The notes below the pieces were generated by a model, which was given only the letters and a program-made list of their open reading frames with translations, was not told the origin of the DNA and did not search any database. Source: Owenia fusiformis (Eukaryota > Annelida > Polychaeta > Sabellida > Oweniidae). From it: a stretch of DNA of 64,000 bases. Made by a program: the position numbers and the translations under genes. Shown here in pieces: positions 13,647 to 64,000 of the stretch; the stretch's first letter is position 1; every line of letters begins with the position of its first letter. The DNA is taken from positions 310,001-374,000 of the forward strand of contig CAIIXF020000009.1 in NCBI GenBank assembly GCA_903813345.2. Direction: 5' to 3'.

Positions 13647-13995
13647 CCGGGATATATAGTCCAAGGATGCATGTTACCAGACTATATTTTCTAGGATATA
13701 CAATATAACTTCGAGGTTTTTATACTGACGAACTATAGATACGTTGACAGCAGTCCCATCCCCATTCAGTACCAATCCTAAATAGCATACCCCATTCAAC
13801 CAGCTTTGCCTCTTTTTAAGGAGTGATATTCGATTGTTTGGGAATTCTTTGCTAAAATATGATATCCTGATCCAAATATCAATTATATTTTCAAGTAATA
13901 TTCGATCTATATCATTGTAACCATGGGGTAATAGTAGTTAGCCTAATTCACTATTTTATTTCATTCTAGTAGTGTGATCTTCGACAACTGTACAT

Positions 13996-15054
13996 ATGGC
14001 AGGCATTGAGCCAGTCACCGTGGCCGCTATTATTGATGACAAGGATGACGAGGAAACACTCCTCCTATATCACTTATTTGAGGAAGATAGGCGTGATGGT
14101 ATTAACGCATTCAGAATAAATCTGGAAAGTCTATCAAATGAAGAGTGCAGTCTCTTGTTTCGATTTGAAAAAGATGATCTATTCAGGATATCTCAGGTCA
14201 TGGAGTTACCAAACGTATTCACTGGTTATAACCGATGTTCGTGTAGTGGCATCGAGGGCTTGTGCCTTTTACTTCGCCGTCTTGTGTACCCAAATCGACT
14301 GTGGGACATCAATGGGATGTTTGGTATGGATCTGTCGACAACTTCGATTTTGATAAACACAGTGAACAACTACGTGTATGAACATTTTGGACCTCTTTTA
14401 ACAGAGTTTAACCAGCCATGGATGACCATTCCAGATTTACAACGATATGCTCGCGCGATTCAGGCTAAAGATGCCCCTCTTATAAACTGTTACAGTTTTA
14501 TTGATGGGACTCCAAGACCATGTGCTCGTCCACAGGAAGGGCAGCGTCATTTCTACAGTGGGCATAAAAGGGAACACTGTCTTAAATTTCAGTCTATCAT
14601 ATTACCCAATGGCATTATTACAAATTTGTATGGGCCTGTTGAGGGGTCCCGGCACGATGCCTCAATGCTGCGTCGCAGTAATATCCTGGATGCACTTGAA
14701 ACAAAAAGCCTGCCTAACGGGGAACCCATGTCGATTTATGGAGACCCCGCGTACCCCCGAACTCCCCATCTTATTACCCCATTTAGAGGACCCGATGTGA
14801 CCCCTCAACAGGCCCAATTCAATAGAAGTATGAGTTCTGTGAGGGAAAGCGTTGAATGGGGTTTCGGAAAAATCATCAGGGAATTTGCTTTTTTTGGACT
14901 TTAAAAAGAATCTCAAAATACTTTTATCTCCAATAGCTAAGTATTACAAAAATGGAGCTTTTTTAACCAATGTGCATACATGCCTTTATGGTAGTCAAGT
15001 GAATACTTACTTTAACACTGAACCTCTGTTACTTGAATACTACATTCATAGATG
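13996..15054 (+). CDS. PIF/Harbinger DDE transposase, one frameshift
   Basis: Nuclease-transposase of the HARBI1-like family, which cuts and rejoins its element's ends. The first frame (13996-14904, 302 residues) carries the catalytic triad in the usual contexts: D170 in SFIDGTPRPC, D221 in GSRHDASML and E287 in RESVEWGFGKI; YGDPAYP lies at 248-254. The C-terminus continues in the next frame from about 14880 (FLDFKKNLKILLSP, then KYYKNGAFLTNVHTCLYG, ending EYYIHR at 15054), exactly as in family members. Removing one T from the T7 run at 14887-14893 would join the frames, so a single-base insertion or a sequencing error separates them. The start ATG at 13996 follows an AG at 13994 region with stops upstream, but an upstream exon is not excluded. 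Confidence 0.85.
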
Positions 15055-35107: not shown

Positions 35108-36668
35108 CACTGAATTATTGCTTAATGTAATTGCTTATTGTTATTACTTACTATTAAGTCTGTTTCCTCTACTCCATTCTAATCTCTTATTTAAAGTATC
35201 ATTATTAGTATACCAATCAACTAGATGATTATTAAGTGTGGTATAAAAAATTTATGATCATATTAAACTCATCTGTTCCAGGGATATCAATGACTGGAGT
35301 AAGATACAGGGTGTAATTTATTTCTCTTTATTGTCCAAAGCATGATAGTCAGAAATTAAAGTTTAAAAGAAGTCAGGTGGCTGAGTATTGTGGGAATAAA
35401 AACAACAAAGGAAGCCAAGGACCCCCAATTTTAGGTGTCTCCAGAATCAGCACTTTGTCGGCTTTGTTCTTTAATGAATCTTCAAATTGAATTCCTATTA
35501 ACAGTAGGAATACATAATGCGGAAATGCCCAGGTTTCTGCAGCATGATTCACTTAAAAAACATCAACAGGAGAGATTGAGTATGATCTTGGTCCTGATGT
35601 CTCTACCGACGATGTTGCACTCTGCATCTGATTATGCTCAGAAGAATAAAAATGCGAAATTCATTAACCCAATCCAAAAACAAGATTGGTTAAAATCCCT
35701 AGATCAGAGTGGGGGAGAAAGAAAAATGTGCAGTTCAGTTATAAAAGAAATAAGGTTGCAATATGCATTAATATTTTAATAAGTATATTTAATAAGTATC
35801 AACAAAACATAGAAAAGCATATGTGGTTTTGAACCCTTATTATGCATATCATTTGTTTTACGCATCAACAAAGGCAAGTTAAACACAGATGTTTCTAATA
35901 GTTTTTGGCTCACACAGTGAGCCTATGGTTGATTAATAGTGTCTCATGACCCAATGCTGGCCAAGGGCTTTATGAATAATTGTATAATATGTATGAATAA
36001 TAATATATCTGTGACATTTGTGAAATAAAAAACAATACAATACATACAACTTACCAAATCGGAGTATGATCTAACTTATACCAGAAGGGACCTTACCAAA
36101 TGGGGAAGGTAAGTCACCAAGTGTTGAACCTAGGGTTCATACAGATCAGGTGTAACATACCAGTAGGATACAAACTATATAAGACTGTCACCACATCCAA
36201 CTGAAAACCCCATTTAGGCCCAACTTCAATGCAATAGAAATACAAGAAGTGTACATGAAGAAATGTATTGTAGAACTGAATTTGATGATAAATAAATGGT
36301 AAAGCATCAATCAATCAATAAATTTATGAACCACACAATTAGGTTTCAACAAAGTTCTGTGAGCACCAAGGAATACCACGAAGAGATGGATTTAGAGAGG
36401 TAGGAAGGAACTTATCTTAAAATTTAAGACTGTATTATACCATATGTGTAGACTGAATATATCATTCATATGTAGGCAAAATCGCTTTTCGATCAATGAG
36501 CACCAAAGCGTATCATGAAGAAATGGATTCTGAGAGCTAGGAAAAATGTGTATCAAAATTAAATAAAGTTAAAAGTGTAGACTGAATATACCGTTTGTAT
36601 GTGGGCAACATTTCTTTTTCAATCAGTGAACAACAAAGTATCACAAAGAGATGGATTTTGAGAGGTAG
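35108..36668 (+). repeat. 1.5-kb dispersed repeat, copy 2 (uninterrupted)
   Basis: Matches copy 1 throughout and preserves the empty insertion site around ATTAAACT (35262). A 114-codon frame at 35435-35779 (for example MPRFLQHDSLKKHQQERLS) is open in this copy but broken in copy 1 by a 45-base loss; no domain recognised. It ends with three 125-bp subrepeats and runs straight into the zinc-finger-linker array. Confidence 0.8.
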
Positions 36669-36689
36669 GAAAAATTAATATTTAAATTA

Positions 36690-37300
36690 TCAACAAATTC
36701 ACACTTGAATGGCCTTTCTCCAGAGTGACAAAATATAAAATGATCTACATATTCACATTTGAATGGCCTTTCTCCAGTGTGACAAAATATAAAATGATCA
36801 GCACATTCACATTTAAATGGATTTTCTCCAGTATGACAATATATGAAAATAAAAATAATAAAAATGATGGACAAATTCACATTTGAATGGCTTTTCTCCA
36901 GTGTGAAAAATATAAAGTGATCAGCAAATTCACATTTGAATGGCTTTTCTCCAGTATGACAAAATATAAAAAAATGATCAACATATATTTAAATGGCTTT
37001 CCTCCAGTTGACAAAATATAAAGTGATCTACATATTCACATTTAAATGGATTTTCTCCTGTATGAAAAAAAAACTTAAAATAATCTACATGTTCACATTT
37101 GAATGGATTTTGACCCCGGAGGCCTTTGTCCGCTGTGACAAAATATAAAAAATATAAAATGATCTATACATTCACATTTAAATTGCTTTTCTCCAGTATA
37201 ATGATATATAAAAATATAAACGATCTACATATTCACATTTGCAAGGCCTTTATTGTGACAAAATATAAAGTGATCTGCATATCCACATTTAAATGGCTTA
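36690..37300 (-). repeat. 18-residue zinc-finger-linker array 1
   Basis: About ten copies of a unit near 54 bp which, on the minus strand, reads VDHFIFCHTGERPFKCEY. HTGERPFKCE is the hallmark linker and first Cys of C2H2 finger arrays. A normal finger repeat is 28 codons (84 bp). Here ten codons, including one Cys and the first His, are missing from every unit, so no zinc can be held in the normal way. Some units keep frame (36641-36880); others have indels. It probably arose by amplifying a deleted finger. Confidence 0.75.
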
Positions 37301-39835: not shown

Positions 39836-40456
39836 TGTGAGTACTGAGTGTGTAATTATATTATAGGTCTCTGATTCGAGGCAGCTGTCTGATTCAGTTT
39901 TCATTATCTCAAAATTATGGTATATGTGTTTCAGATCAGCAAACTATTCCATAAATTGGGTAAGATGACAGTGCATGTTGACAGTGATGTTTGGCACTTT
40001 ATTTGCAGATTGGGATGTTTGTGCAACAGCGAGACCCATGCATTGTATATCTTCTTCATGTTCTCCCTCTCTATCGCCATCTTTGAGTTTGACAAAGATG
40101 ATCTTGACCAACTGATGTCTGCCAAGCGATCCGAGATGCTACTATCTCAAGCTTATGATGTCCATAACATAACATCGGAAGGTATTATGATGAAGTGTGA
40201 CAGAAAGGAATTAGCCCGCTGCTGTCGAAGGAGAACTCACGGCACAGACATAACCTGAAAGCCTATAGAAGACCTGATTAATGAGCTCTCAGGAAAGGCC
40301 GGACTAGACACCGTAGGAGTTTGACTCCTGAACCCAGTCAGGAAGGTTAATGAATGGCAGAACCAAAAACAGCATGTTGAATGCATTCAAGACCCGTCAT
40401 TTCCCAACTGGTCACTGTACAGGGAGATCAAGACCATCATGAAGTCGAGTTCTGCT

Positions 40457-40602
40457 AAAGGTCTATATATGTACCCATAGCTCGACCAGTGTAGAATCCT
40501 TCCATTTACACATAAACCAATTCATACGAAGGTCTATATATGTACCCATAGCTCGACCAGTGTAGAATCCTTCCATTTACACATAAACCAATTCATACCA
40601 GG
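40457..40602 (+). repeat. 73-bp tandem duplication within copy A
   Basis: AAGGTCTATATATGTACCCA through CCAATTCATAC occurs twice head to tail (40459 and 40532). It covers the STSVESFHLHINQF segment, just next to the segment expanded in copy C. Confidence 0.85.
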
Positions 40603-43525: not shown

Positions 43526-44374
43526 ATGGCTACTGTAGGAACTATCAGTCAGTTAATACAATCCCCGAGCTCCTGTTCTGAAAGTGGACAGTCAGAAAAT
43601 GATTCCATCTTAGGGGACCTGTCAATCCAAACTGACTCAACCATAAGGGACTTGTCAACATGGAGTCAAACACCAACAACCCCAAGGAATTGTGAAGTTT
43701 CAGTTAGCTCTGACCAAAGTCCCACAGCAAAATTTCTCTTTCAGTTTTATAGCAACAATCACACAAGCGACAATGGCTAATGCAACAAACAATGCTGACG
43801 GTTTCAATGCAACAAACGACATTGATGGTTTTTGGGCTGTAGGCCTGTTATCCATGCTTACTGGAAATGTCAATTTACTAACATCTTATCGACGTGCTAC
43901 GCCACTCGGCAATCTCTCGCAACTACCCTTCTATGGACCAGGTTATGGGCTTCAAACCTCTGTATACTTTCACCATCGGCTATACGGGGATGTGGACTGT
44001 GAGTCTTATTACTAACACCTTGAGACTTCAACATGAACAGTTTTTGGGACGAATTATAATTGCCATCAATCATATCCAAGAAAACAACACCAATGATCCC
44101 ACTGTTCCCTTCTACTACTCTATCCTAATGGGCCTCCCGGCGAAGTCACGGAGCCAGGTAATAATAATAGCATATCACTTACCGAATATAGCGAAAACGT
44201 TAATGCCTTATGATTAATAAATAGACAAGTCTTAATTTATGCTTTCCATTTCAGGTCAAACTTTTTGAATCCAGTTCTGATGCTCTATCAGCCTCCTTGC
44301 AAGTTCAGAATGCCAATTCAGAGGACAAGATCTACTTCTTAGTTCGAGAAATGGGGGGCAAGGCACAGACCTAA
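43526..44374 (+). CDS. unrecognised spliced gene, two to three frames
   Basis: The clearest part is 43894-44157, reading MGFKPLYTFTIGYTGMWTVS, then LITNTLRLQHEQFLGRIIIA, NHIQENNTNDPTVPFYYSIL and MGLPAKSRSQ, with a GTAATA donor. After TTTCAG at 44254 the frame continues without a break: VKLFESSSDALSASLQVQNA, then NSEDKIYFLVREMGGKAQT and a stop at 44372. Upstream, a Ser/Thr-rich ATG frame (43526-43780, MATVGTISQLIQSPSSCSES) and a frame at 43780-44015 overlap it in other phases, which suggests either a frameshifted first exon or unrelated frames. Composition is unusually protein-like and G+C-richer than its surroundings. I recognise no domain and give no function. Confidence 0.45.
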
Positions 44375-44579: not shown

Positions 44580-45830
44580 AGGAAAACTAAAGATTTTTAC
44601 AATGCTGTATTATTTTTCTATAAGAATGGTTACAATATATACTTAGGTGTCCTATTTGACAGATCATTACAGACAGACAGATCATTAAAAGATCATTAAA
44701 AGATCATATCCATCTTATGAATTTGATAGTCCCTAAGGGAAAGAAGTTAAAAGGCTATGTGACATCAATTCTGAATAAGCACTTGAATGTTAATAGAATC
44801 ACTTTCGGTGATAGACTTTATAAAACGGTAGTAGTCCCATCACTCTTACACGGGTCTGGAATACTTTTACTAGACAAAAAGTCGCACATTAATAAAATGT
44901 CATCCATACAATATAATGTGGGATGCGCCATAATGGATGTCCATTGCAAACCTGCCAAAGTTGCCCTGTTTGGTGACCTAGGCTGGAAGCCCATAGAAAC
45001 ATTGTTGGAAAAGAGCATGATAAATTACTATATTTACCTGAAGTCCCTTAACAAAGAAAACTTACATGCAAGGTTACTTAACGACATGGAAATAAGAGCC
45101 CAGAAGGGTAAGCAAATGGGTTGGGATTTCATTGGTAGTGTCTATAGAATCCTTAACAAATATGATCTAGATTTTAATACTGATTTTAGTGATCTAAAAC
45201 AGATGTTTGAATGTAATATGTCTGATAAGCTGAAAAGCGATTTTAGTGATAGTGTTAATAATATGACTAGTCTTAAAACCTATGTACATTTAAAGAACAG
45301 ATATGGCAAGGAGGAATACCTTCGAACATTCTCGAATGACTTCCTGGGATGCAAATATAAATTCCTTGCAAGGAGTGGTAGATTCAAATTAAGATCTGAA
45401 ACCTGTAAATGGAGAAATCTGAGTAATGATCCACTGGACAATAAATGCACATATTGTAACTTGAATAGCGTAGAAGATATGACACACAGACTCTTAATAT
45501 GTCCCCATTTTAATGATTACCGTATACTATTTTATAATTCAATCACTAATATCGATCCAAATATATGTACTCTGTTTTTTGCTTTACCAATTGAACAGAA
45601 AATTGTTTGGATTTTGGGAGATGGAGCAATGATTGGAGGACATGACTTTTATTGTAAATTTGATAAAGTGTCAAAGAATTTTTTAAAACAGATTTATAGT
45701 CATAACTTTTAAAGTAAAGATGTAACCATTTTAATGGATATTTTACCTGGATGCACCTAATTTTAGTGTGCCACTGTTGTAAAAGTGTAATTCCAAATAA
45801 ATAAATAAAATAAATAAAATAAAAAAATAT
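44580..45830 (+). pseudogene. non-LTR retrotransposon fragment, RT end to zinc knuckle and A-rich tail
   Basis: Starts within the reverse transcriptase (FRKTKDFYNAVLFFYKNGYN, then YLGVLFDRSL, the Y-L-G block). After a small duplicated stretch (AGATCATTA repeated) it runs open for 331 codons (44717-45712): YKTVVVPSLLHGSGILL, then GDLGWKPIETLLEKSM, then RFKLRSETCKWRNL, and the zinc knuckle CTYCNLNSVEDMTHRLLICP with Y/F-x2-YR after it. It ends with repeated AATAAATAAATAAAAT, the usual simple tail. It is 5' truncated. The long open frame suggests a fairly young insertion. It differs in sequence from the LINE tail at 8.8-9.4 kb. Confidence 0.8.
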
Positions 45831-47194: not shown

Positions 47195-47619
47195 TAGATA
47201 TAAAGGGGACCAGGCAGTTGGCTTTGGGTGTGGCATATCAGCATAAAAGCAAGATCTAAAAACATTTTACTTCCTTCACAAAGAACTATTCAAAATGCTA
47301 CGCCTCTAGATGATATTGTGCAATTGAATATGTCAAAAGTCACATATCTGCAGTAAACACCAATCTGCTGATACCATTGATAGTTTGATTGAAAAACTAG
47401 GGACAAAAATAATCACATAGAATTCCATATCCCAACAGCTTCCCAACTAATAAATTCCTATTGAAATCAGTTAGGCTTGGGCTTAGGCAGTCATTGCCAG
47501 CAACAGTGCCAAAAAGCAAAAACAGTTCATTAAGTTGAATAAAGAAATGAACCATTATAGTCATGTCAAATCCGAAACAACATCATCAGCAAATAACTAA
47601 CAAGTATGATTTTAATAGC

Positions 47620-48090
47620 TTTTCTCCTGTGTAAAAAAGGGGAACTGATGTACACTTTCACATTTAAAAGGTTTTCTCCTGTGTGACAAAATATAAAATG
47701 TTCTACAAATTCACATTTAAATGGCTTTTCTCCTTTATGAAAAAATATAAAATGATCTACATATTCACATTTGAATGGTCTTTGTCCATTGTGACAAAAT
47801 ATAAAAAAATGATCTACATTTTCATATTTAAATGGCCTTTCTCCATTGTGACAAAATATAAAAGGATCTACATATTCATATTTGAATGGCCTTTCTCCAT
47901 TGTGACAAAATATAAAAGGATCTACATATTCACATTCAAATGGCTTTTCTCCTGTATGAAAATATATAAAATAATGATATTTAAATTTCCTTCTCCAGTG
48001 AGAAATAAATTGAACTACACTTTCACATTCAATTGGTATTTCTCCAGTGTGAAAAAATATGAAATGATCTACACATTCAGATTTAAATGG
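47620..48090 (-). repeat. zinc-finger-linker array 2
   Basis: Eight or so units of the same 54-57 bp repeat as at 36.7-37.3 kb (ATTCACATTTAAATGGCTTT then TCTCCTGTGTGACAAAATAT). On the minus strand HTGE(R/K)PF(K/E)CEY recurs. The plus strand is also open for 137 codons (47683-48096) because the unit is in phase; I treat that frame as a by-product. Confidence 0.75.
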
Positions 48091-48099
48091 ATTTAAAAA

Positions 48100-49298
48100 A
48101 ATGATTAGAATTTGTTACAAATACTCAGTTGATACTACATGGGATATATTTAAAATGGATAACCATGCAGATCATCACAATGTGCAATAGAAACATTAAG
48201 CAGACTTTTTTATATTAAAAACAGGATATTTAATAAGAAAAATATGTACAGTGATTCAAGCTGAGCTTCTACAGTATTGTCCAGATACAACTAGATTTAG
48301 AAAATACAAACATTCACCCTTATAAAGCTGAAAAATGCTATGGAACTTTCAAAGATTCAAAGAAGCAGGAAAGATGCAATTAAAAAAGGAAACCAGAGTG
48401 AAACATTACATAAACATGAACAAGTAGAATGACATATCGGATAGTTGTGAAAACTTGAAATTACTTAGTACTTGGAAAGAAAAATATGCAAGAAAATATG
48501 TAAGGCCCTTAAATATGACACAAAAATTATCAAATGCAGAAAAATAAGAAAGGCTACATGAAAATATTCATATGTTCTTAAAATGATTTGCCATACAAAT
48601 TATTTAGATGGGTCAGAAACAACAAAAATTCAAGATGCCATAGATGCTTGCTTTTCCAAACAAATGATTTGCTTCCAAAAAGCAAGATATCTTGAAACAA
48701 CAATTACCAGAAGACTACATTGTTGACTGGATTATAAAGTATAGAAGTGGTTAGAGAGCAAGGAATATCCATGCTTGGCTCAAGGTCAATGAATTCGCAA
48801 TATCAAGACTGCTCAGTTCAAATAAAATATGACCACACACCTGATGCAACTAATAAACTTTACCTTCAAAGAAAGAACAGAAGAAAGAACAGAAGAAAAC
48901 CAAATAAAAATTTATACCTTAAACCCTTTGAATTCAGAAAGCTTATATGCTTTAACAGAAACAGAAACGAAAAAAGATTAAATGGAATTGGTATAAAGGA
49001 ATAACACCATCACTTAACCATTATGCATATCAAAACCTCCCTTTAGAGCTTGGTCGATCCTAGTAATTGCTACCAAAAATGCACAAAAGAGTTGTGGGAG
49101 CAGAGAGGGTTTTGAAGAAATTACCAAAGCTGATGAAAATAGTGATGTTAAAAAACATATACCACATAAAAACATATATATATTAACAAAGGATGAACTG
49201 TCAAAAGCGAGTACAATATGTTGGATAGTGGGACAAAGTGATTTCACCCTTAAATCCAAGTATATGATCCCAGTCATAGTGTAAGAAATACATTTTCC
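48100..49298. other. no supported gene
   Basis: A+T-rich. An 85-codon frame at 48747-49004 is Lys/Arg/Asn-rich (KNRRKNRRKPNKN) and has no motif. Confidence 0.4.
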
Positions 49299-55234: not shown

Positions 55235-56089
55235 CAATTTAGCTGATACCATTCCTATAACTGAAGAAAATTTTTTAAATCTACACAGTCATATTAAGTC
55301 TTATTACCATTTTTATTATTATTTGGGAGTATTTTAACACTTCTCCCCCATTTTTGCAATTTGAATCCTCAATATTATAAAATATCTTTTGGTAGGCCAA
55401 TTGAACATGTTGCTTGCAACACAACACAACAGAACTAAAGGTGAAATAAAATAATTTTTGCTGTAGTGGAGCAATTTTGTACATATTTGATATGTAAATT
55501 CTCAAAAGCATGGTTCACTGTTGCTGTTGTTTAGTTAAACCATCATCTAAGAATATTTTAAACTGTTTTTCAGATGCCTCTGTTTACCATGAATATCAGG
55601 ACCAGGAAGTGTGTCCTCAAAGACAGTTTAAAGATGTGGAACTATCCTCCACCAACTCCACTCACTGTGTTGGGGCCACCCAAGACATTTGGTCCATACT
55701 TCCAACTCCCTTTCTTCATGTGGGCGCCCCACAGACTCTGGTCAGGACAACCGCTGGTTTGCCACCTGTGTGAGAAGAGGCTCACCAAGGCAGGAGTATA
55801 CCAGCAGACCTGCCGGCAGGTACTGAGAGAAGAATCCTGGTATTGGATGGGTACAGAGTACCTCGAGTGCAAGGGATGCGGCAAAAAGAGTGCAGCTTGG
55901 TCTGGCCACATCTTAGACCAGTTAGCCTTAGGCCAAAGAAGTCATTTTCCAGCATTCCTTACTTATTGGTAAGTTCATTTCTTTGCTCATCATTTTATTT
56001 TAGAAATGTACTTAATGACCTTAGGGTGATTCCCATGGAATTCCCACCAGGGATGCTAAACTGCTTTTAGCGTACACTTACAACTCAAT

Positions 56090-57741: not shown

Positions 57742-58506
57742 ATGAATTTTATTCACACGCCCTTCATTGATACGGACATTGACCACATTGCCATTCCCTG
57801 GCTTCAAATCAAACACCTTGATCTTAAAAAAGCAGATGAAATTTTGCATACTCTAGAATCTGAACTTGAACAAATAATGCCCAAAGACCAAGGGTCAATA
57901 GCAGAATGCCTTGATGAAACATTACTTCTACATGGTATTGCAAGACGAGCACATTTCAATAAATGTTTCATTGGAAACCGTGCAAATATTTATTGCAAAT
58001 CAGAATGTTATAAGGATATGACTGATGCAGTAGTGCGCAAAACTGAATATTATTTCAAGGAATTGCCTCGGAGGGAAGAAATGCTTAAAAAAGCGAAGAA
58101 AATAGCATCAAAACTTACCCTATTGAACCAGTCATTTGGGAATTTGCATAGAATGGTTGGACACAGCAGGCATATAGAGGAGTGGGAGTTTGACATCATT
58201 GATGAATGTGTTAAAGATTACTGTCAAACATTTAGGAAGCTGTTCCCCTATGAATCAAATCCTCTTAAATTTCACTTTATTGAGGATCATCTTGAACCGT
58301 TTATACGAAAAATGAAATGTGGATTAGGTGTTTTAGGAGAACAAGGCATTGAAGGATTACACAAACAGTTCAACGAACTTGGAGTTCGATTTCGCAGAAC
58401 TAAAAACACATTGAGCCGCCTGTGTAGGAAAAATGGCAGTGATGGCTGTTCGATGGGATTTGCTATGCTTTGGTTTTGCTGTTATCTAGTTAAATCATGG
58501 GTATAG
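57742..58506 (+). CDS. transposase-like protein fragment (GEQGIEGLHKQFN motif)
   Basis: A 254-codon open frame: IPWLQIKHLDLKKADEILHT, LDETLLLHGIARRAHFNKCF then IGNRANIYC, FGNLHRMVGHSRHIEEWEF, LKFHFIEDHLEPFIRKMKCG then LGVLGEQGIEGLHKQFNELG. The last blocks (K-x-H-x2-EDH, then G-EQG-x-E-x-LH-x2-F-N) resemble the C-terminal catalytic part of an uncharacterised transposon-encoded family widespread in invertebrates, where the Glu would be the last DDE residue. Family membership is from memory, the catalytic role is inference. The last 40 codons (NGSDGCSMGFAMLWFCCYL) match the small repeat at 2.27 kb, so the true end was replaced. No intron is needed within it. Upstream part missing. Confidence 0.5.
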   Translation: MNFIHTPFIDTDIDHIAIPWLQIKHLDLKKADEILHTLESELEQIMPKDQGSIAECLDETLLLHGIARRAHFNKCFIGNRANIYCKSECYKDMTDAVVRKTEYYFKELPRREEMLKKAKKIASKLTLLNQSFGNLHRMVGHSRHIEEWEFDIIDECVKDYCQTFRKLFPYESNPLKFHFIEDHLEPFIRKMKCGLGVLGEQGIEGLHKQFNELGVRFRRTKNTLSRLCRKNGSDGCSMGFAMLWFCCYLVKSWV

Positions 58507-58812: not shown

Positions 58813-60390
58813 TGTGATATATGGGTTATACTGCACACATTCTTTATCAACTTTAAAGATTACATACGCAATTCCACTATTCATGGGCAACACATTCCAT
58901 CACAGAACTGTCCTTTGTGCAGACAGATGTATACTTGCTGGTGGATCATTATGAACTTTGACTCTCCATGCTTTGAATTCCCATATTGGTCCTGCAGATT
59001 CAAAATTCCAAAAACGACACCCAGGAAAGTTGGACACATGGTGTCATGTCACTTAGTTCTCAATATAACAATCAAAACAAAGAGTCCCTATGGGGCAAAA
59101 GGTATAGCAGCAATATCAACTGCAACTTCCCAGATAAGACATAAGACAAAAGGCTGAGGCTTCATCTAAGTTTTACAATGAAGCTAGAGAAAATAAAGGC
59201 GATATTAATAAAACAAACAATTGAAGCAGTTTATTGCATTAGTGATTCAATACAAAATTCAACCTGACAAAGGATTCCAATGTCAAATATTGGGACACTT
59301 AGAATTCTATCAAGCAGCCATTGTTTTCTTATCACTTACCTTTCATGCTTCATTTCTACTAATGCTAATGATATGATAGCAATGTGCAATTTTCATCAGG
59401 TCACTCACTTCATCATCATGAAGGACAGTTTGCAAGCTGGTTGGCCAGAGATCTGTTTACCATGAATGTCAGGACTGGGAAATGTGTCCTCAAAGACAGT
59501 TTCAAGATGTGGAACCATCCTACACCAACTCCACTCACTGTGTCAATCCAAGACATTCAGTCCGTACTTCTAGCTGCAATTCTTCATGTGGGCACCACAC
59601 AGACTCTGGCCAGGACAACTGCTGGTTTGTCATCTGTGTAAAAAGAGGCTCACTAAGGCAGGAGTATACCAGCAGACCTGCCAGCAGGTACTGACAGAAG
59701 AATCCTGGTATTGGATGGGTACATTAAATAACAGATAGTGGTTGTCGACTAAAGTTGTTTTACTTTTAGTAAACATCTCAGGGAAGATCTGTCATGATTC
59801 CAAATTCTACAATATCATTGTATTTAATTTAAGCTGGTGTGAAAATCATGAATTCAGGTCAGAGGCCCCTTGCAATTCTTTTTAATAATAATAAGATAAG
59901 TTTGGATTTGAATTCATTGAATTTCATCATATTAGATCGGTATGAGAAAAAGTATATTCTTTCAAAGGTTTCAGTTAATACCTAGGTATAATACAAACTT
60001 ATAGGTGCAGAAAAGATTGTGATGTATGGGTTATACTTCACACATTCTTTATATATATATCAACTTTAAAGATTATGTACTGGATTCAATTATTCATGGG
60101 CATCACATTCTATTTCAGAACTGTCCTCTGTGCCAGATGTATACTTGCTGGTGGATCATTACGAACTTTGTCACTGCCCATATTGGTCCTGCAGATTCAA
60201 AATGCCAAAAACAGTACCATGTCACTTAGTTCCTCAAAATAACAATCAACACAAAGTCCCTTTGGGACAAAAGGTATAGCAGCAATATCAACTGCAACTT
60301 CCCAGATGAGGAAATCATAAAGACTAAGTTTTACAACCAAGTTAGAGAAAATGAAAGCGTATTATTAAAACAAACAAATGTCTCCCTCAT
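58813..60390 (+). repeat. tandem segmental duplication, units about 1.2 kb apart
   Basis: 58813-59225 and 60018-60390 are alike (GGGTTATACTGCACACATTC / GGGTTATACTTCACACATTC; ATGTATACTTGCTGGTGGAT; AAAAGGTATAGCAGCAATAT; CAACTGCAACTTCCCAGAT), about 85-90 percent identical with small deletions in the second. The first unit is followed by a copy of the DUF6729-like exon; the second is not. Confidence 0.8.
59440..59724 (+). pseudogene. VDRD/RLDIWHF family, N-terminal exon copy B'
   Basis: Over 280 bases it is about 93 percent identical to copy B exon 1 (TTTACCATGAATGTCAGGAC versus TTTACCATGAATATCAGGAC; GGCAGGAGTATACCAGCAGA identical), but small deletions break the frame into three pieces. Homology stops abruptly at GGATGGGTACA, mid-exon. 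So it is a recent, truncated duplicate of copy B. Confidence 0.75.
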
Positions 60391-61480: not shown

Positions 61481-61686
61481 GACATTGGCGCTGAACTCAC
61501 AATATTTTCACTTGGCACCTTTTGAGGTGGATCCCGGCTATGGCATTAATGGTTGAGAAATAGGGATTGAAACCAGCCATAATTTTCCTCTGATGACCAT
61601 TGTGAATTATTGTGTTTTATGGATTATGGCGACGGCTTTTGTGAATGGATGTTGACCCTTTGAAACCCCTATGGACTTGGAGACTG

Positions 61687-63875
61687 GAAGGTGAAAAAGG
61701 CGTGGTTCACTCCCCCCACCGGCTCCCCGCCGCGTGATTGTGCCCCATGTAGACTGCTATTTCACCCACAGGCTGTGTGTGGATGCCCAAACGGCTCTTG
61801 GGTGTCCAGCTCTACTGCCCCCACATTGGACCCATTGCTGGGAAGGATAACCAACCCACCATAAACTGACCCATGCTGGCCATTACTCTACTGTGCACCA
61901 AGTGTTAGATGTAGATGGGTTCTATTACTTGGTTGGCGAGTACTATGAGTGTACGTTCTGCAAGGCAAAGTACATCAGCTGGAGTGGTATTGTGCTGAGA
62001 CAACTTAATGTTGCCCACCGTTGCCAACTTAGTGCCATTCTCACCTACAAGAAGGCAGCAGACTTGAGGGTGGTGCGGCTTTTGAGGGTTTGTGGCCTTG
62101 GGAATAGCTCCACCCAGCTCTACACCAAACTAGAGGAGCAGCATGAAGAGGCATTCTTGGTCCAGGAGGCACTCTACCTTGCAGACTGTTCCAAGTTTGC
62201 AGAGGCAGCCAACCAGAATAGGATCGCCCCAGTCACCTTTGACCCCACCCCCATTCGCGACCCTATCCCCATGCCCAGATGGTTGAACTTTGTCTTCATC
62301 CAGGATGTAGTTTCCAGATTGGAACAAGTGCAGGCGTTCATTACTAGTGTGTTTGGGACAATCCTTAAGATGGATTCAAGATGGAGTAAATACTAAATAT
62401 TATAGAATAAATTATTCTGAAATATGAAATTAAATAAATTGCCTTTAATTTATTACATATTTAAAGCTAAAATATATTACTTATATTAAAAAAATGTCAT
62501 AATAATATTTAAAAATTAAGATATATATAAATATATATGAAAATAATTAGAAATAAATAACATGAATTAAATAAACAATTATTATAAACAATTATTTATA
62601 TTAAGGTGACCAAGATGTTAGCGGGAGAGGCTGATGGGACGGCCAACTGGTGTACTGATGTTGGCAATGAGTACGGCCAGGTCCTCATGTGTGTATTGAC
62701 TGCCACAGAAGGGTACAGAGTCCAGTCGATGATTGAAGGCCTTGTGAAGAGGTATAGCGATGCTGGCGTCGAACCTCCTCTGGCCCTCTACGTTGACCGT
62801 GACTGCTGTGGCAACTCACAGACCCTGAAATTTTTCTTGGCATGGCCAGACATGAAGATCCGCCTGGACATCTGGCACTTCATGCGCCGTATTGCCAAGT
62901 GCTGCACCACTGTCTGCCATGAGCTCGACGGGCTGTTTATGGCAGAACTCAGTCGGTGCGTCTTTGTATGGGATGCAGAAGACCTCAACCTTCTGAAGGA
63001 AGCGAAGCGGCAGGAGATGCTTTCGGAATACCTGGATCCAACTGATGCAGATATCCAGAGGCGCATAGCAAAGAAAGAGCTGGCCCTTCACTGTAGACGG
63101 AGGACTCGGGGTGCCGAGGAAACAGAAAACCTGTTAACCCAGCTCCTCGATACATTTAAAGGTGAAGATGGGCACGATTCATTAGGAACACCACTTCTGG
63201 ATATAGATCGTGTTGCTGATATGTGGGAATCTCAGAAGCGCCACATCGTGTGCATCCAGGACCCCATAGTAGCTGGGAAACCCGTTCCCCTGTACACGGG
63301 GGTTGGGACATTGGTGAAAGGTGGTGTGACACTGCCCATCTACAGATGTGGTGTGACACTGCCCATCTACAGATGTGGTGTGACACTGCCCATCTACAGA
63401 TGTGGTGTGACACTGCCCATCTACAGATGTGCCTGTGGCTCTACATCCCTGGAGTCCTTCCACAACCACCTGGCTAAGTTCATACCTGGTAAGCTTTTGT
63501 TAATGATTTGTTACATTATTATGTAATACCCGAGTGTGATGCACATGGACTTTTTTTATGAATTTTATAAATTAAAAAAAGGGTTTCTCATATCATTAAT
63601 CTATAGTACTTTATATTATAGGCTAATATTTTAGACTATATCTAGTTTGTTTTTAAAAATTATATTTTCAGGAACCAGCGCTAGTGTCATGCACTTCCAG
63701 GCCTTCCTAGTGGAAGGGTAGGTGAGATGGAATGAGAACCGAGCCCTTGAAGCCACTGCATCTAGCCTGCCCAGTTCTTATGACACCTTGCTACAAAGTG
63801 CTGTTAGCCAGTTAAGAAGGCAAGTGTTTGATGATGATGTTGCTCCAAAGTTCACCCCTCTCAAGAAGTACACAG
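61687..63875 (+). CDS. VDRD/RLDIWHF transposase-like gene, copy C, least damaged, runs off window
   Basis: Exon 1 begins near 61687: APRRVIVPHVDCYFTHRLCV, then WMPKRLLGVQLYCPH. After a stop and a one-base shift near 61868 comes THAGHYSTVHQVLDVDGFYY then YYECTFCKAKYISWSG. From 61893 it is open: QLNVAHRCQLSAILTYKKAA, DLRVVRLLRVCGLGNSSTQL, ALYLADCSKF, IQDVVSRLEQVQAFITSVFG. Exon 2 (62606-63488, after TTAAG) reads EADGTANWCTDVGNEYGQVL, then LALYVDRDCCGN (D64, D66), RLDIWHFMRRIAKCC (D88), KKELALHCRRRTRGAEE and SLESFHNHLAKFIP, ending at a GTAAGC donor. Exon 3 (63672-63875) splices in frame: GTSASVMHFQAFLVEG, stop TAG at 63719, then VRWNENRALEATASSLPSSY and a GTATG donor. N-terminal Cys pairs suggest a zinc ribbon (DUF6729-like, from memory); the Asp motifs suggest an RNase-H-fold transposase core. 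The 62397-62605 gap is almost pure A+T and acts as an intron or insertion. Confidence 0.65.
63323..63430 (+). repeat. 27-bp coding minisatellite, four perfect copies
   Basis: GGTGTGACACTGCCCATCTA followed by CAGATGT occurs four times with no change and keeps frame, giving GVTLPIYRC four times. The usual single V-x-LP-x-YRC segment of this family stands just before the STSLESFH motif. Perfect identity means a very recent expansion or an assembly artefact. Confidence 0.95.
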
Positions 63876-64000
63876 GTATGTTAAATAACTAAAAATAACC
63901 AAGTTAAATCTAGTGACCCTATAGTTTGGAACGTTATTAACAATCTAATGATTTTGATATCTCTGAAGTCTGAAGCATTCGATTCTGTGATCAATTGATA
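63876..64000. other. intron of copy C, to window end
   Basis: Starts with a GTATGTTAAAT donor after exon 3; A+T-rich. The next exon is expected beyond the window by comparison with copy A. Confidence 0.5.

Follow-up and report, generated by a model that had tools for sequence, protein, structure and literature searches.

A decayed DUF6729 gene in Owenia fusiformis and its remnants within dispersed elements flanked by 8-bp target-site duplications

Near the right-hand end of the window (the whole 64,000-nucleotide stretch of DNA analysed here, C9:310001-374000 of the 498 Mb genome of Owenia fusiformis), a spliced coding stretch at 61687-63875 raises the question of whether it is a relic of a mobile element or belongs to a gene family with a function of its own, and, in the former case, whether the element falls into a named transposon superfamily. 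A Wnt gene search of this genome gave 42 exon-level matches, which marks it as that of an animal, Wnt genes not being known outside animals. The stretch contains three or more exons belonging to a single gene, and this multi-exon copy has decayed, with an in-frame TAA, a TAG and a 27-bp tandem array, the last of which was absent from the first-pass annotation of the locus. The score of the Pfam domain DUF6729, together with protein matches to other copies, excludes a coding stretch by chance. The following features were located in and around the gene copy.

61600..61688, plus strand, terminus of an unrelated high-copy repeat, adjoining the gene on its 5′ side and stopping just before the DUF6729 exon
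61716..62376, plus strand, DUF6729 exon with a zinc-binding-like domain (Pfam PF20499, 160.5 bits, E 6.5e-47), 3′ limit set at LKMDS
62373..62375, plus strand, Asp of LKMDS, candidate for the first catalytic acid; L008, L009 and L011 likewise have MDS or LDS
62394..62605, plus strand, AT-rich interruption of about 210 bp between the first and second exon, intron or insertion
62606..63490, plus strand, core exon with 294 open codons, from ORF reading and protein matches
62792..62803, plus strand, VDRD, candidate second catalytic acid; VDRD also in L010
62864..62878, plus strand, LDIWH; LDIWH in L011, DVWH at window 39986, LDILH in L009, LNIWY in L010
63279..63349, plus strand, 71 bp common to the gene and the dispersed elements, 87% identity
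63321..63431, plus strand, 27-bp tandem array, 4.1 copies of a perfect unit, in-frame repeat of VTLPIYRCG
63440..63457, plus strand, STSLES, with the candidate catalytic Glu at 63452-63454; Glu also in L011, L012, L013 and at window 40 kb
63672..63877, plus strand, downstream exon GTSASVMHFQAFLVEG...KKYTG in the family register, TAG at 63719-63721

With 160.5 bits against a Pfam gathering cut-off of 27, the first exon is a member of the DUF6729 family. The gene family, at first regarded as uncharacterised, is therefore not wholly so, as its zinc-binding part is a known domain. The core exon gave no convincing match to any Pfam family. The DUF6729 exon (genome match C9:371716-372309) is broken by a single in-frame TAA at 61848-61850. 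Of the paired Cys motifs ascribed to it earlier, the second pair (CTFC) is present, whereas the first has been lost in this copy and is intact, as CHLC...CKGC, in a fragment at 55.6 kb. The repeat terminus on the 5′ side, which has at least 39 other copies at 98-99% identity (40 of 689 candidates scored), may have cut away the 5′ part of the gene. The AT-rich stretch following the first exon is read as an intron or an insertion, since L010 and L011 also have a gap at that point and L008 and L009 next to none.

The reading frame bore out the open core of 294 codons with VDRD, LDIWHFMRR and CRRRTRG blocks: 62606-63488 translates into 294 residues, within a stop-to-stop frame of 312 codons (62588-63526). 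The LDIWH motif resembles the D(2)H motif of several DDE superfamilies. The 27-bp unit, repeated in the window copy, is present once in L011, in L016 and in an element on C10. A short AT-rich intron separates the core exon from the downstream exon, and the gene extends beyond the window end, with exons at about C9:374.1-375.8 kb (L015). At L015:3458-4039, downstream of the gene, a 193-codon ORF without Pfam match may be a further exon or another gene. A coding-like repeat, GFKPLYTFTIGYTGMWTVSLITN..., occurs in at least three copies around the locus (L015:2144-2722, L015:4366-4710 and window 43647-44217), and one Pfam scan of it was negative.

Elsewhere in the window, an open Harbinger-type transposase was found at 13978-14904 (DDE_Tnp_4, 4.5e-24), and apart from this separate gene, Pfam searches of the window exons and downstream ORFs returned no transposase. 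By reading, degenerate tandem C2H2 zinc-finger-like frames (TGE.PFKCE repeats) were recognised on the minus strand at 36641-36988 and 47566-48114, and a 350-codon ORF at 44660-45712 resembles the end of a non-LTR retrotransposon. The gene itself is accompanied in the window by three further pieces of its family.

39986..40600, plus strand, second core copy, broken, 36% identity to the core, 3 stops
55580..55966, plus strand, DUF6729 fragment with both Cys pairs intact, PF20499 at 3.6e-32
59544..59723, plus strand, short DUF6729 fragment with 1 TAG

Between the two DUF6729 fragments, a 254-codon ORF at 57742-58506 has an unconvincing best Pfam match (E 0.05). Protein and family searches of the genome placed other gene copies on C2, C5, C8 (two places) and C9, with at least 16 DUF6729 stretches in five clusters (19 candidates scored) and, additionally, the core copy on C5. 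Relatives in five other clusters have 27-56% protein identity over aligned pieces of at least 30 residues. Every gene copy examined was either partial or broken by stops and frame changes, and no intact gene copy was found in this assembly, in which gaps and withheld stretches read N. In the readable copies, MDS or LDS still precedes the core, and the first Asp of VDRD, the CRRRTRG block and the Glu of STSLES-like motifs are preserved. At the VDRD position, L008 has VDRG and L009 TDSY, so that the first Asp is retained in all four readable copies and the second in two; the DIWH-like motif is mostly kept, L010 having NIWY, and the Glu of STSLES is replaced by Gly in the deleted C10 element.

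A comparison of the window copy with L011 over 187 codons gave 75, 54 and 124 differences at codon positions 1, 2 and 3, and this excess at third positions indicates that the protein was under constraint in the past. The same observation, together with the clustering of the copies (4 pieces within 24 kb of the window, several on C8 and C2), would suit a family of host genes that have a function of their own, decay by tandem duplication and are tied to mobile elements only incidentally. A transposase would be expected to show past constraint just as much, however, the copies examined are without exception broken or partial, and the presence of several exons of the gene, colinear, inside elements flanked by target-site duplications (TSDs) strains this explanation, which we regard as very improbable.

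The link to dispersed elements emerged from the core protein matches, as 6 of the 16 listed comprised one and the same stretch of 24-25 residues at 80-83% identity. The DNA around this stretch (381 bp from C5) gave 22 full matches, i.e. itself and 21 others at 89-98%, as well as one split copy and the window gene at 87% over 71 bp. These matches belong to at least 23 dispersed repeats, all matching the fragment that includes part of the gene, and the 12 copies measured were 6.2-12.6 kb long. The ends of the elements are fixed, starting with GAGAAAGAGTCG and finishing with CGAGTGCTTCTG; on extending the copies, both borders proved sharp, GAGAAAGAGTCGAAGGCATGC on the left and CTTATGGCAACGAGTGCTTCTG on the right. 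Perfect 8-bp TSDs, the sequence of which varies by copy, flanked all 12 large copies in which both ends were read, as well as seven of seven short copies with the same ends (886-977 bp). In a third subfamily of short copies (248-749 bp), four of five had perfect 8-bp TSDs and the fifth matched at 7 of 8 bp, bringing the total to 23 perfect duplications among the 24 copies read at both ends. Copies read at one end only (the left end in L024, in L026 and in a second L019 copy; the right end in L018 and in a second L042 copy) were left out of this count.

The right-end 22-mer occurred 108 times in the genome at up to two mismatches, while its reversed control gave no occurrence. Identity to the query was 79-100% for left ends (40 of 209 candidates scored) and 94-100% for right ends in full-length rows (40 of 211 scored); the high identity among copies suggests recent movement of the elements. 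The family was first described as large, which is true of these deleted derivatives and less so of copies of the gene. Candidate terminal inverted repeats (TIRs) are weak, with 12 of the first 19 positions matching and the first base mismatched (shuffle p 1.1e-4, the length of 19 having been picked post hoc). Among 19 TSDs, a count which the five of the third subfamily lie outside, the pattern A2..T7 was seen in 8 against 2.3 expected (p 0.0006, pattern picked post hoc), and T2..A7 in 2. When the flanks of the C1 insertion were joined, repeat copies matched across the junction at 71-79%, for example at C2:19425353 (query 36-163 of 163, 74%).

The dispersed elements have the fixed ends and the TSDs of constant length expected of cut-and-paste DNA transposons. 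An LTR or LINE identity was rejected on account of the constant 8-bp TSDs and of internally deleted short forms that keep both ends. At C7:1144412-1144999 (in L019), a pair of elements is arranged head to head, left ends facing, with about 130 bp between them.

Four of the at least 23 elements were compared with the gene in detail, and in all four its remnants keep their order and share a single strand. By blastn, L020 matched the window gene at 63279-63349 (87%), 63407-63468 (81%), 63663-63884 (69%) and 65545-65809 (73-83%); L019 matched additionally at 64151-64259 (77%), and L016 at three of these places. L020 and the window also have unrelated short repeats in common. The C10 element matched at 63278-63469, 64792-65092 and 65535-65810 with order and strand kept (linked tblastx E 4.5e-53, a value that reflects DNA as well as protein likeness, since one linked piece lies in another frame). 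The downstream exon at 63672-63877 has 67-69% DNA identity with L016, L019 and L020, and one downstream exon was recovered from eight elements at 98-100%, from the window gene and from one other place (10 matches, 11 candidates scored). The DUF6729 part and the bulk of the core could not be located in the elements, either among the DUF6729 matches listed or in the C10 element, which was checked directly. Upstream, the elements carry further coding-like stretches; these N-terminal stretches, candidate parts of the gene, had no match in the gene clusters.

Around the window gene cluster and eight other loci, the best matches to the element ends were within the range of shuffled patterns, and no element ends with a TSD were found around the window gene copy. 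The suspicion of a mobile element, and the genome-wide search for borders proposed along with it, were consequently rewarded in part: mobility is well supported through relatives, elements with pieces of the gene and short forms alike having the same fixed ends and 8-bp TSDs, whereas the window copy and the other gene copies lack recognisable ends and no full copy was recovered. Within this assembly, where gaps and withheld stretches read N, an intact element was likewise looked for without success.

In the main competing mechanism, the DUF6729 gene would have been a passenger, i.e. a host or relic gene captured and spread by another transposase of the kind that leaves 8-bp TSDs (hAT, MULE, KDZ or P type). 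This genome does contain coding remains of hAT-like and KDZ elements, so such a transposase could have moved a captured gene, and both the gene copies without element ends and the unmatched N-terminal stretches of the elements would be in keeping with this. Against a hAT carrier, the TSD preference of hAT transposons is T2..A7, which is the rarer of the two patterns counted above. PMC12730594 gives 8-bp TSDs for Zisupton, 7-bp TSDs for the two Kyakuja families treated there and usually 8-bp TSDs for hAT, and hence both hAT and Zisupton would produce duplications of the length seen here. In the elements compared in detail, however, several exons of the gene stand in order, and Pfam scans of the element ORFs found no other transposase in the common element, a nested insert apart; for these two reasons, capture is held to be less likely, and we consider it improbable.

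Two candidate drivers of the element family were rejected. A hAT-like ORF in the C11 copy is a nested insertion, not present at the corresponding position of L019 or L020; it has a weak Pfam hAT match (E 0.015, below the cut-off), and its ends differ from those of the element. LINE-like ORFs in the C10 copy, identified by reading, are likewise a nested insertion that L019 and L020 lack there.

The gene at 61687-63875 is, in our judgement, probably what decay has left of a multi-exon gene encoding the transposase of a cut-and-paste DNA transposon, an element whose amplified copies are internally deleted. A transposase is the most likely identity of the gene because pieces of it occur in shrunken elements that moved recently and are flanked by 8-bp duplications. 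In the proposed mechanism, the zinc-binding-like DUF6729 domain would bind DNA or the element ends, and the RNase-H-like core following it would contribute D (LKMDS), D (VDRD), a DxxH motif and E (STSLES), with a C-terminal region encoded across several exons. The order D, D, DxxH, E is, in our reading, the pattern expected of a DDE transposase with a helical insertion; the gene product would have an RNase-H fold and metal-dependent chemistry. The enzyme would excise elements of the form GAGAAAGAGTCG...CGAGTGCTTCTG and join them to the target over a staggered cut, the 8-bp TSDs implying an 8-bp stagger. In Ac/Ds, the full element supplies transposase for internally deleted copies. By the same model, a full element would have encoded the DUF6729 protein, and this protein would have mobilised the internally deleted copies with intact ends; the spread copies would be deletion derivatives, their mover presumably an intact copy since lost or unassembled.

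Comparisons of the core with known folds and transposases provided the following. A PDB sequence search with the gene gave nothing meaningful (best E 0.72), and the viral contigs searched contained no relative of it. Structure models reached a mean pLDDT of 35 from the single sequence and 56 from an 11-row alignment, and with these models Foldseek gave no match at E ≤ 0.001, the matches listed being noise. The weak model with pLDDT 56 suggests, too uncertainly to support a fold, a strand, a helix and a strand in its first part and mostly helices between VDRD and STSLES. The candidate acids D, D and E are retained in most readable copies. A relation of the gene to HMGXB3 was also considered and dropped, as the literature search gave no support for it.

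The superfamily is a separate matter from the identity of the gene. A divergent branch of a named superfamily (KDZ/Zisupton, MULE or hAT) would overlap with the transposase explanation and differ from it in name only. Zisupton and hAT have 8-bp TSDs in common with these elements, according to the source cited above, and such a branch is compatible with short weak TIRs. Eleven core rows, most of them short pieces, were compared with the Pfam transposase families, and none matched KDZ, hAT, MULE or any other; when the core was aligned by hhalign with two KDZ sequences of this genome, the probability was 0.1%, a weak test with thin profiles. Taken with these results, a named superfamily appears somewhat unlikely.

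It is conceivable, and we propose it tentatively, that a separate superfamily of animal cut-and-paste DNA transposons, as yet unnamed, has DUF6729 proteins as its transposases and is marked by 8-bp TSDs, weak ends of GAGAA/TTCTG type and a spliced gene. This status was judged on the Pfam and KDZ comparisons, and an entry in Repbase or Dfam may exist. A full-text literature search for DUF6729 or PF20499 found nothing, and in the literature on KDZ and 8-bp-TSD superfamilies no title or opening of an abstract named the DUF6729 family. According to PMC4455052, a superfamily is delimited by iterated profile convergence with reference transposases. Should the protein converge with no named transposase, a new transposon superfamily would follow, and DUF6729 genes annotated elsewhere would need re-reading as mobile or domesticated DNA; under this proposal, DUF6729 proteins of any species would be transposases or the products of genes domesticated from them. 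A domain without known function gains a concrete, testable role in transposition, and the element ends, the target-site length and more than 100 end copies are now available for seeking an intact element in relatives.

Among known systems, MULE (Mutator) elements are characterised by terminal GAGA, TSDs of 8-9 bp and a C/DxxH motif after the second Asp. The elements described here are alike in their GAGA ends and 8-bp TSDs, as is the gene in its DxxH motif, and differ in the missing Pfam match of the core rows and in having no long TIRs. With hAT they share the usual TSD length, and their candidate TIRs are likewise short and weak, whereas the core rows lack a hAT match and the TSD preference is unlike T2..A7. 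Of the KDZ (Kyakuja-Dileera-Zisupton) group, remnants of which occur in this genome, Zisupton is similar in its 8-bp TSDs (PMC12730594), and the core differs from the group by the Pfam and thin-profile hhalign comparisons. The N-terminal exon is strongly similar to DUF6729 (PF20499, 6.5e-47), a domain that Pfam describes without function; here it precedes a candidate DDE core, and mobile elements contain, in pieces, the later exons of its gene.
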